In this document: one piece after another, positions 5,334 through 13,720 of the stretch
Layout: every line of letters begins with the position of its first letter
How positions within the stretch are numbered: position 1 is the first letter of the stretch
Assembly: GCA_022822905.1 (NCBI GenBank)
Contig: JAJDYE010000029.1
Location: forward strand, 62,001 to 126,000
Length of the DNA: 64,000 bases
Source: Acidimicrobiia bacterium
GTDB taxonomy: Bacteria; Actinomycetota; Acidimicrobiia; Acidimicrobiales; Bin134
Direction: 5' to 3'
Notes under the pieces: model-generated
The model's input: the letters and a program-made list of their open reading frames with translations, nothing else
What the model was told of the DNA's origin: nothing
Databases searched by the model: none
Made by a program: the position numbers and the translations under genes

Positions 5334-7652
5334 CTATTCGAGGCCCATTCCGATTTCGCGGAGTTCGGCTAGGCGGACTTCTTCGGTGTCGGGGGCGGGG
5401 GGGCCGGGAACGTAGGTCACTTGGTGGATGGTGCCGGTGTAGGGGAACGAGCCGTGGCGCTGGTGGAGCTGCCACGACACCGGGGAGCGACGGTCGACGC
5501 CCACGTCTATGCCCTCCCAGGGGATGAAGCCGTAGATCTGGGGGATGTCTGCCGCGGCGATGCCGGTCTGGCCGTCGGCACCCACCGTGATGTTCCAGAT
5601 GCGCCCGCCGGGGGCGGCGACGTCCAGAACGATCTGGCGGCACTCCCCCGGCAGGTCCATGGGGTCGAACACCATGGGCTGGCCGCCGCCGTTCACCTCG
5701 AAGTACAGGGCGCCGTCTTCGATGTAGAGCACATAGCCCGATGCCTGCCCGCCGTGGGCCACCAGCACGCCCTGGTCGCCGGGTTGGTGGTGCAGGTCGA
5801 CGGTGACGGTGAAGTTGCCCCCCGCGATGATCCGCGACGCTCGGTACCGCTCCACGGTGGGCGTGTCGGGCAGGATCCGCAGCGGCCGGGTGAGCAGGTC
5901 GTGCTCGGCGGGACGGAGCAGGCGGTATAACCCGGTGCCCTCGTCGAGGGGATAAACCCGGTTGCGCCAGGCGGCCTCCTCCCAGGCCTCTACGAGCTCG
6001 GCCAGCTTCTCAGGCTCGGCCTCGGCCAAGTCGACCCGTTCGTTGAGGTCGTCCTCCAGGTTGAACAGCTCCCAGCGGTCGGTGCTGAACGGGGTCATGA
6101 ACTCGTGGAAGGCGGCCGCCCCCCAGCCGTCGCGGTAGTAAGCCCGGTGGCCGATGCACTCGTAGTACTGCTCGGTGCGCTCGGAGGGGGCATCTGGGTC
6201 GCCCAGCGTGGCGGCAAACGACACGCCGTCGGGGCTCTCGGAGGCCAGTCCGTGGCGCTCGGAGGGGATATCTACCCCCACCATCTCCGAAAGGGTGGGC
6301 AGCAGGTCGATGATGTGGGCGTACTGGTGGCGCAGTTCCCCGCCGACCGAAGCAGTGCGGGCCGGCCACGAGAACACGAACGGCACCGAGTGGCCGCCCC
6401 GGTAGGAGGTGATCTTGTAGAGACGGAAGGGGGTGTTGCAGGCCATGGCCCAGCCTCGGGGGTAGTGGGGCCAGGTGGTGGGGCCGCCGATGGCGTCGAG
6501 GGCGTTCATCTCCTCTTCGCCCACCTCCGCCGACGACATTGCCCCGGGATTGCTGTAGGTGAAGTAGGAGGTGGTTCCCTGGGCCCGGCCCTCGCGGGAT
6601 GCGCCGTTGTCGCTGGTGAATACGAAGATGGTGTTATCGAGTTGGCCGATGGCCTCCAGCTCAGCCCGGATGCGGGCCACGCTGTCGTCGATCGACTCCA
6701 CCATGGCGGCGTACACCTCCATGTAGCGGGCCATGACCCGGCGCTCGCCCTCGGAATAGCTGTCCCACGCCCGCACGTCCTCGTCGGGCTCGAAATTGCG
6801 GGGCGGCAGCTCGGTGTCCGGCGGCACCACTCCGAGGTCGATCTGGCGGGTCAGGCGCTCTTCGCGAAGCTGGTCCCAGCCTTTGTCGTAGTTGCCTCGG
6901 TGGCGGGCGATGTCGTCGGCTTTGGCGTGCAGCGGAGCGTGGACCGCCCCGTGGGCGTAGTACAAGAAGAGCGGCTTGTCGGGGTCGGTGGCCTTTACCT
7001 CTCGGATCATGTGGCAGGCCCGGTCGGTGAGATCGTCGGTGAGGTAATACCCCTCTGGATACTCGGAGATGTCGATGGGGCTGTTGCCCTCATACATCAG
7101 GTGGGGGTGATGGAAGTTGGTGAGTGCCTCCAAGAATCCGTAGAACTGGTCGAAGCCCCGCTGGAGCGGCCATGAGTGGGTGTCGCCCGCGATCGACAAG
7201 TCGGTTTCCTTGCACAGATGCCACTTGCCCACCGCCATGGTGGCGTAGCCGCTGGCCTTGAGCATCTCGGCCAGCGTTTGCTGGTTGTGGGGCAGCTCTC
7301 CGGCATAGCCGGGGAAGCCGGGATCGGCGTTGGCCACAAAGCCCACGCCCACATGGTGGGAATTGAGCCCGGTCAAAAGCGCGGCCCGGGTGGGCGAGCA
7401 CAGCGGGGTCACGTGGAAGTTGGTGTAGCGCACTCCGGTGGCGGCCAATTCATCGATGGCCGGGGTGGCGATCTCCGAGCCGTAACAGCCCACGTCGGAA
7501 TAGCCCAGATCGTCGGCCAGCACAACCACGATGTTGGGAGCGCCCTCGGGCGGGGTGGGGCGGGGCGGCCACCACGACTCGGAGGTGGCCATGATCTTGC
7601 CCACCGTGCCCTCGAACCCGGGGTAGTGCTCCTGCTGGCGCTGATCGGTCAT
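5334..7652 (-). CDS. Arylsulfatase-family sulfatase, copy 2
   Basis: A 772-residue paralog of the downstream sulfatase, colinear over its whole length with the same N-terminus ([13 protein letters not shown]). It carries the same [10 protein letters not shown] metal site, Cys85 in CSPTR, SDNGAS, and C-terminal LamG-like domain. An in-frame start 13 codons upstream (7691) exists, but the ATG at 7652 matches the paralog's start and has AAGGAG at good spacing, so it is preferred. Differences between the copies concentrate in loops and the C-terminal domain, which fits substrate divergence after tandem duplication. The amidohydrolase gene ends 66 nt upstream on the same strand, so a three-gene transcript is possible. 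Confidence 0.9.
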
Positions 7653-10649: not shown

Positions 10650-11283
10650 CGGCCAGAACGACTCCCTCAGACACCGCTATTCCCGGTGAGGGGGTGGTGG
10701 CTTGATTGCTTACACCTCGGCTGGTGAGGGGTTCTAGGACCTCGTCGTTGAGGGACCAGTTGAGGCCGGTGGTGGTTACCCGGGCCGGGCCGCCGAGAGC
10801 GAACAGCGACACAGTGTCTCCCGGCATCACCTCTAGGACGCGGTGGCCGTGGACTACGACGGCTTGGGCGTTGCCTAGCCAGGCTTCTATGTCGACTCCT
10901 GACCATTGGGGGGAGGCCAGCACGTTTAGGTTGCCGATTAGGTGGTCTAGGCGGCCTCCGCCGGCGCCGATGACGATTACCCGGTCGGCGAGGCGGGCGG
11001 CTAGCTCTAGGGCTAGCTCCAGGTCGGTTTGGTCTTTGTCGGGGGGGTGGCGCTCTATGCGGGTTCCGGACTGTTCGGCGGTGATTAGGGCTTCGGGTGA
11101 CACTGAGTCCATATCTCCTATTGCCACAGCCACGGTCAGGCCAGCAGCTACCGCATGGTCAAGACCGTGGTCGGCGGCTACCACCACTGGTTTGGCGGGG
11201 AGACGGGCGATCTCTTCTGGTGTCGGGGGGTCGCCGCCCGCTACCACCACCACGGTGACGCCGGGCTCGGTTGGCGGTGTCAT
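10639..11283 (-). CDS. thiN: Thiamine pyrophosphokinase
   Basis: A 214-residue protein matching the TPK family, which makes thiamine diphosphate from thiamine and ATP. Typical segments are AADHGLDHA, AIGDMDSV (acidic metal site), HPPDKDQTDLELAL (the DKDxTD signature) and GAGGGRLDHLIGN. The upstream in-frame extension to 11364 lacks family character, so the ATG at 11283 is used. That ATG overlaps the stop of the upstream gene (TGATG), indicating translational coupling. It is therefore the third gene of the UGSC selenoprotein operon, a pairing with no obvious reason. Its stop overlaps a convergent gene by 11 bp. Confidence 0.9.
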   Translation of the reverse strand: MTPPTEPGVTVVVVAGGDPPTPEEIARLPAKPVVVAADHGLDHAVAAGLTVAVAIGDMDSVSPEALITAEQSGTRIERHPPDKDQTDLELALELAARLADRVIVIGAGGGRLDHLIGNLNVLASPQWSGVDIEAWLGNAQAVVVHGHRVLEVMPGDTVSLFALGGPARVTTTGLNWSLNDEVLEPLTSRGVSNQATTPSPGIAVSEGVVLAVIP

Positions 11284-12329
11284 CAGAATGGGCGGGTGAT
11301 GGCTCGAGTGGGGCCGAAGTTGTGGAGACCGCCGGCGTGGAGGTTGCCGAGGCCTCCGGCGCACATCACGATCACGTCGGAGGGGTGCTCCACGATGTGG
11401 GCGGTGCCGTCGGGGCTGATGCGGTCGCGCTCAGCGAGCCACTGCTTGTGGGTTTCGGGGAATTGATCGACTTGGTGGCAGGCGTTTTGCCACAGGGCTT
11501 CTTGCACGTCTTCGATGGTGGGGTAGGCCGCGGCCAGCATGTCGGCCCAGGGAGGGGGCACCACCACCATGACCTCGGCCCCCCAGTGGGAGATGTAGGC
11601 GTTGGTACCCACATAGGCCAGCGATTGGCCGATGACCCAGGCCAGTGAGCGGCCGTTGTCGGCGGCGATGTCGGCGATGTCCATGGTGCCGATGGTGCCG
11701 TAGACGGTGACCGCGTCGCCGCTCACCCCCCGGCGCTCGGCCAGCGGCGGCCACGGAGAGCGCTCCTCCCACTCCCCCATCACCAGGCCCACCACCCGGG
11801 CAGGCTGGCCCAGCACGCATTTCGACGTCTCTCCGGCCACCTGGCCGCCGACGTTGCGCATGACGAGGCGGATGGCCCGCCCGATGGCCGGCCCGGCCCC
11901 CGCAGCGCCGCCGAGGCATCCGGCCTGATAAGGCAGGTCCAGCCGGTCGCGGGCCGGGCCATTCACGAATAGACAGGGCACCACGGAACTGGTGGTGGTG
12001 TTGAGTGCGAACAGGTCAAACGGCCGCTCAGCCATGGCCTCCAGCGAGGCCATCATCAGCGGCATGGCCTCGGGAGCAGCCCCGGCCATGCAGGCGTTGA
12101 CGGCCAGTTTCTCCACCGTGCACCAGGCGTTGGCCGGGGGCACCTCCAGCAGCACCGAATCGGCCGAGCGGTCGGCAGCGGCGGTGAATTGGGCCACCCG
12201 ATCCGGTGTGGGCGGGATCAAGGGCAGGCCGTCGCCCCAGCCCTGAGCCGTGGCCCAGACCATGAACTCCGCTGGGTCGTCGGGGGCCTCGACTTGCCCG
12301 TCGGGGATGGCGTCGCAGTCAGGGCGCAT
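11283..12329 (-). CDS. Cys-containing protein of unknown function, partner of the UGSC selenoprotein
   Basis: A 348-residue protein without a domain I can name securely. It starts with an AEFMVWATAQGWGDGLPLIPPT block followed by two close cysteines in PPANAWCTVEKLAVNAC. Further cysteines lie in VVPCLFVNG, YQAGCLGG and SKCVLGQP, and glycine-rich stretches such as CLGGAAGAGPAIG suggest a compact enzyme. No signal peptide or membrane helix is seen. The ATG directly abuts the TAA of the selenoprotein gene (TAAATG), and its own TGA overlaps the thiN start, so all three are coupled. The tight linkage and the many cysteines suggest a redox partner or second subunit of the UGSC protein; this is inference. 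Confidence 0.7.
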   Translation of the reverse strand: MRPDCDAIPDGQVEAPDDPAEFMVWATAQGWGDGLPLIPPTPDRVAQFTAAADRSADSVLLEVPPANAWCTVEKLAVNACMAGAAPEAMPLMMASLEAMAERPFDLFALNTTTSSVVPCLFVNGPARDRLDLPYQAGCLGGAAGAGPAIGRAIRLVMRNVGGQVAGETSKCVLGQPARVVGLVMGEWEERSPWPPLAERRGVSGDAVTVYGTIGTMDIADIAADNGRSLAWVIGQSLAYVGTNAYISHWGAEVMVVVPPPWADMLAAAYPTIEDVQEALWQNACHQVDQFPETHKQWLAERDRISPDGTAHIVEHPSDVIVMCAGGLGNLHAGGLHNFGPTRAITRPF

Positions 12330-12863
12330 TTACAACGCCACTCCTAGCGAGTCCAGCAACGTTGGCCAGAAGTCGCGGGCAATCTGGCGCACCTCCGGTT
12401 CGGGACGGGTGTCCAGCGGATAGGGCAGTACGCACAGCCGCAGGCCGGGTCGCTCCATGTTGCGGGCCATGATCTCGGCCAGCGGCACGAACTCCTCGGT
12501 TACGACGGCGACCGCCGTCTTGCCCTGGGCCGCCACCGCAACTGCGTCGTGGACGGTCCAGGACGTGCAGCTGCCTCAATTGCCCAGGCCGACGATGGCG
12601 ATGTCGACGTCGGTGGCGAAGCCTTCCAACTCTTCGAGCACCGCGTCCTCGAGCTTCACGTCCTGGCGGGACTCCGAGCACCACGGCACCACCTCGGCCC
12701 CGGCCGCCTCCAGCTTGCGGGTCCACTCGTCGGTGGTCCACAGGAACGAGCGCCAGGTGAGGTCGTAGCGGATGCCCACCCGCTTGCCGGTCAGCGGACC
12801 GGCATCGGGGCCCCGATCAGGGTCGATCAGCGGCGGAGCAGCCGTCGGATCCATTACCAACAT
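12330..12863 (-). CDS. UGSC-family selenoprotein with in-frame UGA (selenocysteine 96)
   Basis: Read through a TGA at 12578-12576, one frame of 178 codons runs from ATG 12863 to TAA 12330. Without readthrough it appears as two adjacent in-frame ORFs. The residues at the junction are VGLGN-U-GSCTSW, which is the U-G-S-C motif that names a known selenoprotein family found in marine metagenomes and actinobacteria. The half before U (KRVGIRYDLTWRSF, VDIAIVGLGN) and the half after it (AVAVVTEEFVPLA, LPYPLDTRP) form one alpha/beta protein. A strong hairpin starts one base after the UGA. A TAGTCT hexamer 6 nt before the ATG suggests a leaderless mRNA. UGSC proteins are presumed thiol/selenol redox enzymes; the reaction is unknown. 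The selenocysteine machinery (selA, selB, selD, selC) is not in this window. Confidence 0.88.
12538..12574 (-). promoter_or_regulatory. Bacterial SECIS-like hairpin
   Basis: Starting one base after the UGA, an 8-bp stem (GCAGCUGC with GCAGUUGC, one G-U pair) continues past a 2-nt bulge to GUC/GAC, one C-C mismatch, and UGGA/UCCA closing on loop CCG. If the top A-U pair opens, the loop is ACCGU and contains the GU expected of bacterial SECIS loops. The apical loop lies about 20 nt from the UGA, within the usual range. The pairing was worked out by hand. Confidence 0.75.
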
Positions 12864-12910: not shown

Positions 12911-13720
12911 CTACCGGCCGGTGAACTCGGGCGGACGGCCCTGTTGGCGGGACTCGGCCCACTCTCGGAAGTCGGCTGAGCGCGACGACAGCTCCATGGC
13001 GAAAGCCTCGTCGCCCAGGTGGGCCTCCAGGCTGCGGCCGGAGCCGCGGTGAATGAGCATTTTGGCCAGTCCAACAGCCACAGCGGCCGAGGCAGCGAGC
13101 CGGGAGGCCAGCGCGGCGGCTTTGGCGTCGACATGGTCGGCCGGCACCGCCTGATGGATCAGCCCCCATTCTGCGGCCTCAGCCCCCGACACCTCTTCAC
13201 CCAGCATCAGCATTTGTTTGGCCCGGGCCACACCGGCCAGACGGGGCAACAACCACGACGAGCCGCTATCAGGGGTGATGCCCATGGCGGAGAAAGGGGC
13301 CCGCAGCCGGGCATCGTCGGCGACCACCGCGAAATCCGAAGCCAGCACCAGGCTGAGGCCCAGACCCACCGCCCATCCCCGCACCGCGCACACGATGGGC
13401 ACCTGCACCTCCAGCATCACTGGGATGAGCCGATTCACCAGATAGGGCATGCGCCGGGAGATGCTGCCCGGCCGGGGCCGAGAACCGTCGCCAGCCCGCC
13501 CGGCCAAGTCGAAACCGCTGCAAAAGTTCTCGCCGACCGCGTTGAGTAAAACCGCCCGAATCTCCTCGTCGGCGCTGGCCGCTTCCAAGGTGTCGATCAG
13601 GGCCAAGACGATATCGTCGGTCAGCGAGTTTCGGCGCTGGGGCCGGTCGAGAGTGAGGGTCAACACCGGCGGCGCCGAGACCACGTGCAGCCCGTCGGGC
13701 GGCGTCGGATAGGGCTTCAT
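12911..13720 (-). CDS. Enoyl-CoA hydratase/isomerase family protein (crotonase)
   Basis: A 269-residue crotonase-fold protein. Family blocks are LTLDRPQRRNSL (N-terminal CoA site), NFCSGFDLAG (first oxyanion-hole strand), CAVRGWAVGLGLSLVLASDF (second oxyanion-hole segment) and the ITPDSGSSWLLPRLAG helix. In classical hydratases one glutamate lies in the second segment (GGG/GE region) and one in the later PD-helix. Here the positions are neutral (GWAVGLG, DSGSS), so the reaction may be isomerisation or something else and not hydration. It lies just upstream of the UGSC gene on the same strand, separated by 47 nt. The start at 13720 is plausible but has no strong Shine-Dalgarno sequence. Confidence 0.85.
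   Translation of the reverse strand: MKPYPTPPDGLHVVSAPPVLTLTLDRPQRRNSLTDDIVLALIDTLEAASADEEIRAVLLNAVGENFCSGFDLAGRAGDGSRPRPGSISRRMPYLVNRLIPVMLEVQVPIVCAVRGWAVGLGLSLVLASDFAVVADDARLRAPFSAMGITPDSGSSWLLPRLAGVARAKQMLMLGEEVSGAEAAEWGLIHQAVPADHVDAKAAALASRLAASAAVAVGLAKMLIHRGSGRSLEAHLGDEAFAMELSSRSADFREWAESRQQGRPPEFTGR

Follow-up and report, generated by a model that had tools for sequence, protein, structure and literature searches.

A split UGSC selenoprotein gene and its constant partner gene as a putative two-subunit, GrdB-like selenoenzyme

In the genome of an Acidimicrobiia bacterium, two open reading frames separated by a TGA codon form a single gene for a 177-aa protein of the UGSC family, and this gene directly adjoins a second gene that is the constant companion of UGSC genes. 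The best explanation, which we hold to be probable with moderate confidence, is that the UGSC protein, with its TGA decoded as selenocysteine (Sec), and the product of the partner gene constitute a two-subunit GrdB-like Sec reductase that is used in catabolism. The genes lie in a stretch of 64,000 nucleotides of contig JAJDYE010000029.1 (assembly GCA_022822905.1), here called the window, and the features are listed in Table 1. The UGSC family and its Pfam and NCBIfam models were already known, and the constant partner, a Sec domain apparently of the GrdB type and the six parallel copies of the genome are added here. The five further Sec-containing UGSC paralogs, the partner gene, the GrdB relation and the existing family models all lie beyond a preliminary description of this DNA.

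Table 1. Features of the UGSC locus, in positions of the window.
Feature	Position	Strand	Basis and remarks
Partner protein, 348 aa	11283..12329	(-)	ATG abuts the UGSC stop (TAA/ATG); AlphaFold2 pLDDT 94.0
UGSC selenoprotein gene, 177 aa; Sec is residue 96 (TGA); stop TAA	12330..12863	(-)	Frame and Pfam UGSC; AlphaFold2 mean pLDDT 93.7 (Cys form)
Predicted bacterial-type SECIS hairpin right after the UGA	12535..12571	(-)	GU in apical loop (about +25/+26); inferred from folding
In-frame TGA, U of U-G-S-C	12576..12578	(-)	Kept as TGA or Cys codon across homologs
Enoyl-CoA hydratase/isomerase family gene	12911..13720	(-)	PF00378, E 1.4e-43; 47 bases 5' of the UGSC ATG

On the minus strand, a single frame runs from an ATG at 12863 to a TAA at 12332-12330, and its sole in-frame stop is the TGA at 12578-12576 (codon 96), with the codons for GSC next to it (...DIAIVGLGN-U-GSCTSWTVHDAV...). 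The preliminary description had claimed an in-frame TGA followed by GSC, two halves in one frame and a UGSC protein broken up by standard gene callers, and this observation is confirmed. A homolog on the Paracoccus ferrooxidans plasmid pFER4 (L225:8411-8980) is likewise deposited as two hypothetical proteins, and its joined frame has TGA-GSC. An HMM search with the read-through product identifies Pfam UGSC (PF24696) at an E-value of 1.4e-30 and 107.1 bits over residues 3-173, past the gathering score of 25 bits, and the [U/C]-G-S-C motif is present at its conserved place. The NCBIfam model NF041046, "UGSC family (seleno)protein", covers residues 72-173 only and misses its 125-bit equivalog cut-off with 71.7 bits, so the window protein, a UGSC member as judged by Pfam, is a divergent one outside the NCBIfam equivalog core. 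Tested alone, the 81-aa half 3' of the TGA matches PF24696 at 6e-19 (69 bits); the 95-aa half 5' of it has no Pfam match at E<=0.001, and its ~38 bits are therefore added in context only. The nearest foreign homolog, at locus L069, is 95% identical in protein sequence and keeps both the TGA and the frame, which speaks against a chance arrangement. Between the two genes, 11 of the 16 changed codons 3' of the TGA (82 compared) and 6 of the 11 changed codons 5' of it (95 compared) are synonymous, and the synonymous share of the changes is about alike on the two sides.

The genome (3.80 Mb, 95.65% complete) contains the machinery for Sec insertion, which the preliminary description had named as a check of its reading. 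The tRNA-Sec scores 67.5 bits, above the family cut-off, and is also called as tRNA-SeC(tca) by ARAGORN; SelA scores 401 bits, SelB lies above its cut-off, and selA directly adjoins selB. SelD (357 bits) has an in-frame TGA of its own in GAGUAGKL, so that the signature recurs in another gene of this genome, unrelated to UGSC. The selA and selB genes are located on one contig (C12:113217-131803; L023, L024) about 16 kb from tRNA-Sec, and SelD on another (C5:52458-53402; L031). The best single hairpin 3' of the window UGA has a folding energy of -14.6 kcal/mol. Across 112 UGSC family sites caught by a regular expression, a GU is found in the apical loop at +18..+28 in 95 of 103 TGA sites versus 5 of 9 TGC sites, a small control; the mean z is -1.24 against synonymous shuffles, a value obtained from related sequences with a small control. 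The loop counts around the TGA are supportive of a putative SECIS element, with the control being small. The interpretation of the preliminary description, that the UGA of the window gene is translated as Sec, is supported by the Sec machinery of the genome and by the U or C at this site in homologs (below).

A search with PF24696 identified six UGSC genes in the genome, each with exactly one internal stop, TGA in every case; the motif is U-G-S-C in five copies and U-G-A-C in one. The window protein is 21-34% identical to its five paralogs, and its neighbors in the tree are proteins from an Acidimicrobiia MAG, Myxococcales, Frankia, Blastococcus and Pseudonocardia, not its own paralogs. As the window copy is nearer to foreign proteins than to its paralogs, the six copies are old. 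At the Sec site, 136 distinct motif-bearing homologs have 111 U and 25 C and no third residue, hits below 120 aa, duplicates and two rows without a G[S/A/G]C motif having been dropped. Homologs without both U and C, which had been named in advance as evidence against a selenoprotein, were sought and are absent from these 136 rows. One of the two rows dropped for lacking G[S/A/G]C, L201, still has U. The Sec/Cys changes on the 136-row tree number at least 6; because this FastTree tree has several long branches, only the minimum and the nearest rows are quoted. Cys99, three residues after Sec, is invariant in 48 of 48 sequences (alignment A3); some rows of alignment A2 whose stop is TGA end in a spurious residue.

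The exchange of Sec and Cys also follows the presence of selA. When 395 genomes of the class were searched for UGSC, 137 of the best 150 matches had a single internal stop, TGA, and the remaining 13 were free of stops. A convincing selA is missing from 21 of the 138 UGSC-bearing genomes (counted by hand from two listings). Fourteen of these 21 have stop-free copies only (G023, G145, G220, G316, G340, G393, G068, G111, G146, G158, G194, G203, G206 and G218), and the one copy inspected in each has Cys at the site (14/14). Five of the 21 retain the TGA (G362, G188, G292, G361 and G377), three of them being less than 80% complete; for the remaining two (G196 and G154), the hits are only fragments. 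The ratio of TGA to none is 132:6 in genomes with selA versus 5:7 in the others within the best 150 matches (Fisher p 4e-6, uncorrected for kinship); the base of the selA comparison is these matches plus a repeat search of the selA-less genomes, not all copies. Two variants of the family stand apart. A UGSC-like protein at L077:5111-5638 has ALCDQGVTQNCC and no U/C-G-x-C motif; it adjoins a partner homolog and stands next to two intact tandem pairs. Three proteins (L041:1216-2016, L042:1489-2289 and L044:1195-2019) consist of UGSC and a fused C-terminal domain of ~90 aa with a conserved DEACAEC, for which no Pfam match of its own was found. They are candidates for the fusion of UGSC to an "Unknown_1" domain that the available part of the 2008 survey reports (PMC2398784).

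The partner protein has six paralogs of ~350 aa in the genome, each adjoining one of the six UGSC genes (6/6). A scan of species genomes with the partner sequence gave at least 449 confirmed relatives, of which the best 80 were kept. In 73 of these best 80 loci (of at least 449), the same strand carries a UGSC gene at most 2 kb away, before the partner 59 times and after it 14 times, with a median gap of 66 bases, and the gap is below 300 bases in 69 of the 80. The other seven of the best 80 have no UGSC in the stretch examined (L082, L092, L107, L122, L129, L130 and L145); in L092 and L122 the stretch ends at the partner gene. A degenerate UGSC was sought beside these seven at a low threshold and was not found, L122 having a nine-residue CNCGSCSAW only. 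Since the neighbor is constant in 6/6 paralogs and in 73 of the best 80 loci (of at least 449), the pairing is not incidental. The same association is seen in the 395 genomes of the class, in which UGSC is present in 138 and the partner in 136: 133 have both, 5 have UGSC only, 3 the partner only and 254 neither (Fisher p 9e-95, uncorrected for kinship).

The partner family is not named in Pfam or NCBIfam, six members having no match below E 0.05 in either; against PDB sequences the matches are at chance level, and in plasmid records the protein is a "hypothetical protein" or unannotated. Membership in any named family was considered and is unsupported by these searches. An hhalign comparison of the partner profile with GrdB, PrdB-like and UGSC proteins gives probabilities of at most 0.6%. 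The best Foldseek rows for the partner model are a Leishmania fumarase (class I; E 2.7e-4, TM 0.27) and barbiturase/cyanuric acid hydrolases, and the VIA structure comparison yields Z of at most 4.4, a weak likeness. Within residues 80-84 of the partner, a Cys is found in 41 of 49 sequences (MAGC) and an Ala in the window (MAGA). The 8 of 49 partners without this Cys include the window clade, which counts against the two-subunit reductase, and several members of that clade also have Cys in place of Sec in UGSC.

The AlphaFold2 model of the Cys form of UGSC (pLDDT 93.7) has five alternating strands and helices in the order E-H-E-H-E-H-E-H-E-H, with strand 88-94 before residue 96 (Cys/Sec) and helix 97-111 after it. 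Most rows of the structure comparison are Rossmann- or flavodoxin-like proteins with Z of ~9-10, a common arrangement, and the fold is predicted to be Rossmann-like (parallel alpha/beta), not a thioredoxin fold. GrdB and PrdB chains are absent from the structure-comparison rows shown, a result that is neutral for a GrdB relation. Searches of UGSC against PDB sequences gave weak matches only, the best being an ArsA ATPase at E 0.0012, whose single stretches score 2.9 or worse.

In glycine, sarcosine and betaine reductase, GrdB is the selenoprotein that activates the substrate. Read through its own TGA, an example of GrdB has VDAVILTST-U-GTSTRSGAAITTELEKAGIPA, and the UGSC counterpart of this Sec stretch is VVIEALAD-U-GSCTSCSVHDTVNLEAAGVPM. 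In hhalign, UGSC and GrdB align across 84-85 columns with the two Sec residues superposed (probability 94.9-95.9%, E 4e-8 to 5e-9), and controls with reversed sequences reach at most 1.2%. UGSC against PrdB-like proteins gives 80%, and GrdB against PrdB-like proteins 99.9%. An earlier, shallower GrdB alignment had given 44-85% over 29-37 columns only. From the sets used, the false frames L156_2510 and L197_1519 were left out, and the U-P-x-C proteins were taken out of the long set and put with the PrdB-like proteins (19 and 23 rows used). PF07355 (GRDB) has no match to 15 UGSC proteins at E<=1, yet the profiles align, so the Sec half of UGSC is best regarded as a distant homolog of the GrdB Sec domain, not as a member of that family. 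In the genome of the window, G000:C6:9709-10128 has a short PF07355 (GRDB/PrdB-like) match at E 1.6e-9, and the GrdB genes from a phylum search (L150-L157) have U-G-T-G at the TGA, not U-G-T-C.

The genes around the pair give a picture of uptake and breakdown of organic compounds. In the window, the enoyl-CoA hydratase gene upstream possibly belongs to the same operon as UGSC, and L069 has a same-strand ORF, known as an ORF only, at the equivalent place (6610-7416). An amidohydrolase, a zinc-type alcohol dehydrogenase and a SnoaL protein are encoded within 5 kb of UGSC. A survey of 112 same-strand neighbor proteins from 63 of 85 loci found TctC solute receptors to be commonest (14/112), followed by Pyr_redox_2 (4/112), by amidohydrolase, SBP, NMT1 and alpha/beta hydrolase (3/112 each), and by CoA-transferase III, enoyl-CoA hydratase, SelB and AIRS, the SelD domain (2/112 each). 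The glycine reductase genes grdA, grdC, grdD and grdE are not among the 25 commonest families of these 112 proteins, and no single pathway is common to the immediate neighbors of the six copies. A trxB gene is near few pairs, as 1 of 605 neighbor ORFs matches two plasmid trxB queries at E 1e-8. On a Roseovarius THAF8 plasmid, the partner, a Cys-containing UGSC and trxB follow one another, with TRAP transporter and CoA-transferase genes next to them, and on a Variovorax SRS16 plasmid the partner and a Cys-UGSC lie near trxB and TctC-type receptors. The Sec-UGSC island of pFER4 carries selA, selB, cysteine desulfurase, and TusA- and DsrE-type genes on the plasmid. Haloarchaea also carry the UGSC-partner pair (L085, Natrialba, with Cys; plasmids L227 and L228, in which UGSC is annotated as one protein), suggesting a two-gene cassette transferred between domains.

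The most likely mechanism is borrowed by analogy from glycine reductase and D-proline reductase; the available text of PMC13188914 describes GrdB and PrdB as homologous Sec subunits that act in multi-subunit enzymes. UGSC and the protein encoded at 11283-12329 would form one two-subunit enzyme, in which substrate binding and specificity would fall to the partner. The UGSC subunit would contribute a parallel alpha/beta fold in which Sec96 stands at the start of the helix that follows the third strand, Cys99 coming three positions later. The selenol of Sec96 would attack the bound substrate and then be released by forming a Se-S bond with Cys99, and an NADPH-flavoprotein/thioredoxin-type donor would restore the selenol. 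The six copies may be parallel versions for different substrates, presumably serving to break down organic acids or CoA-linked compounds taken up by the cell. With the stop codon of UGSC abutting the start codon of its partner, less partner would presumably also be made when Sec insertion fails.

Other readings of the locus have to be weighed against such an enzyme. That the TGA is a true stop, leaving a pseudogene or a 95-aa product, would agree with the splitting of the gene by standard callers and the two-protein annotation of the pFER4 homolog, but it is exceedingly improbable given that the single internal stop is TGA in 6/6 paralogs and in 137 of the best 150 class matches, that Cys replaces the TGA elsewhere, that the region 3' of the TGA is under purifying selection and that the genome has the full Sec machinery; the recurrence of the TGA, the Cys exchange and the codon changes led us to reject it. 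A thioredoxin-like thiol oxidoreductase that acts alone on protein disulfides or peroxides, with the neighbor merely a frequent companion, is suggested by the UxxC motif, which many thioredoxin-like selenoproteins share, and a thioredoxin fold was suggested for UGSC in 2008 in the available portion of PMC2398784. The predicted Cys-form model, with its strict alternation and mostly Rossmann- or flavodoxin-like matches, lacks the two consecutive strands of the thioredoxin core (beta-alpha-beta-alpha-beta-beta-alpha), and we reject that fold; together with the constancy of the partner noted above, this makes a lone oxidoreductase quite improbable.

A UGSC-partner enzyme could also be non-reductive, for example a lyase, isomerase or transferase, with Sec or Cys as a nucleophile and no net transfer of electrons. 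The likeness of the partner to class I fumarase and cyanuric acid hydrolase and the closeness of enoyl-CoA hydratase, amidohydrolase and SnoaL genes would fit such an enzyme, but that likeness is weak in the VIA comparison, the invariant Cys three residues after Sec suggests Se-S chemistry, and Sec in the relatives GrdB and PrdB serves reduction, according to the accessible part of PMC13188914. We consider this reading unlikely, with a small chance of being correct.

In the portion available to us, the 2008 survey lists UGSC among the commonest selenoproteins of the Global Ocean Sampling data, with 255 Sec sequences, and the family's function, called unknown in the preliminary description, has stayed unassigned since then (PMC2398784). 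Selenoproteins with the UGSC motif are also described for Geodermatophilaceae, where tRNA-Sec reads TAG, in the available text of PMC5330540. Neither a partner of UGSC nor a relation to GrdB was found in the accessible parts of PMC2398784, PMC13188914, PMC9312934, PMC5029168, PMC5330540, PMC9402790 and PMC7539508; the subscription literature was mostly outside this scope, and an earlier publication is possible. The constant partner and the GrdB link turn an "unknown thioredoxin-like protein" into a testable two-gene enzyme. The six Sec copies of this one genome are invisible to standard gene calling, and, with the pFER4 homolog annotated as two proteins, genome annotations can miss UGSC. A paper on monofluoroacetate reportedly uses the term "GrdB-like" along with selenoprotein.

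More tentatively, and somewhat short of probable, UGSC and its partner may represent a widespread third branch of the Sec-reductase superfamily of GrdB and PrdB, forming a class of two-subunit selenoenzymes that has been carried into many catabolic settings in Actinomycetota, Chloroflexota, Pseudomonadota and others. Its substrate-binding subunit would belong to an undescribed family, possibly with an undescribed fold, and Cys versions would run the same chemistry in haloarchaea and Sec-less bacteria. Compared with the known systems, the window gene is most like the UGSC family itself (PF24696/NF041046), with a whole-length match, U-G-S-C and the TGA/Cys exchange. GrdB shares with UGSC the order strand, U, G, helix, "E..GIPT", strand and HP/YP motif, with Sec on Sec; UGSC, with 177 aa, is without GrdB's long N-terminal region and has a different partner. 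PrdB, known from the literature as the Sec subunit of D-proline reductase, is like UGSC a single-domain Sec subunit that works with a second subunit, whereas its motif is U-P-x-C in place of U-G-S-C and it is nearer to GrdB than UGSC is.
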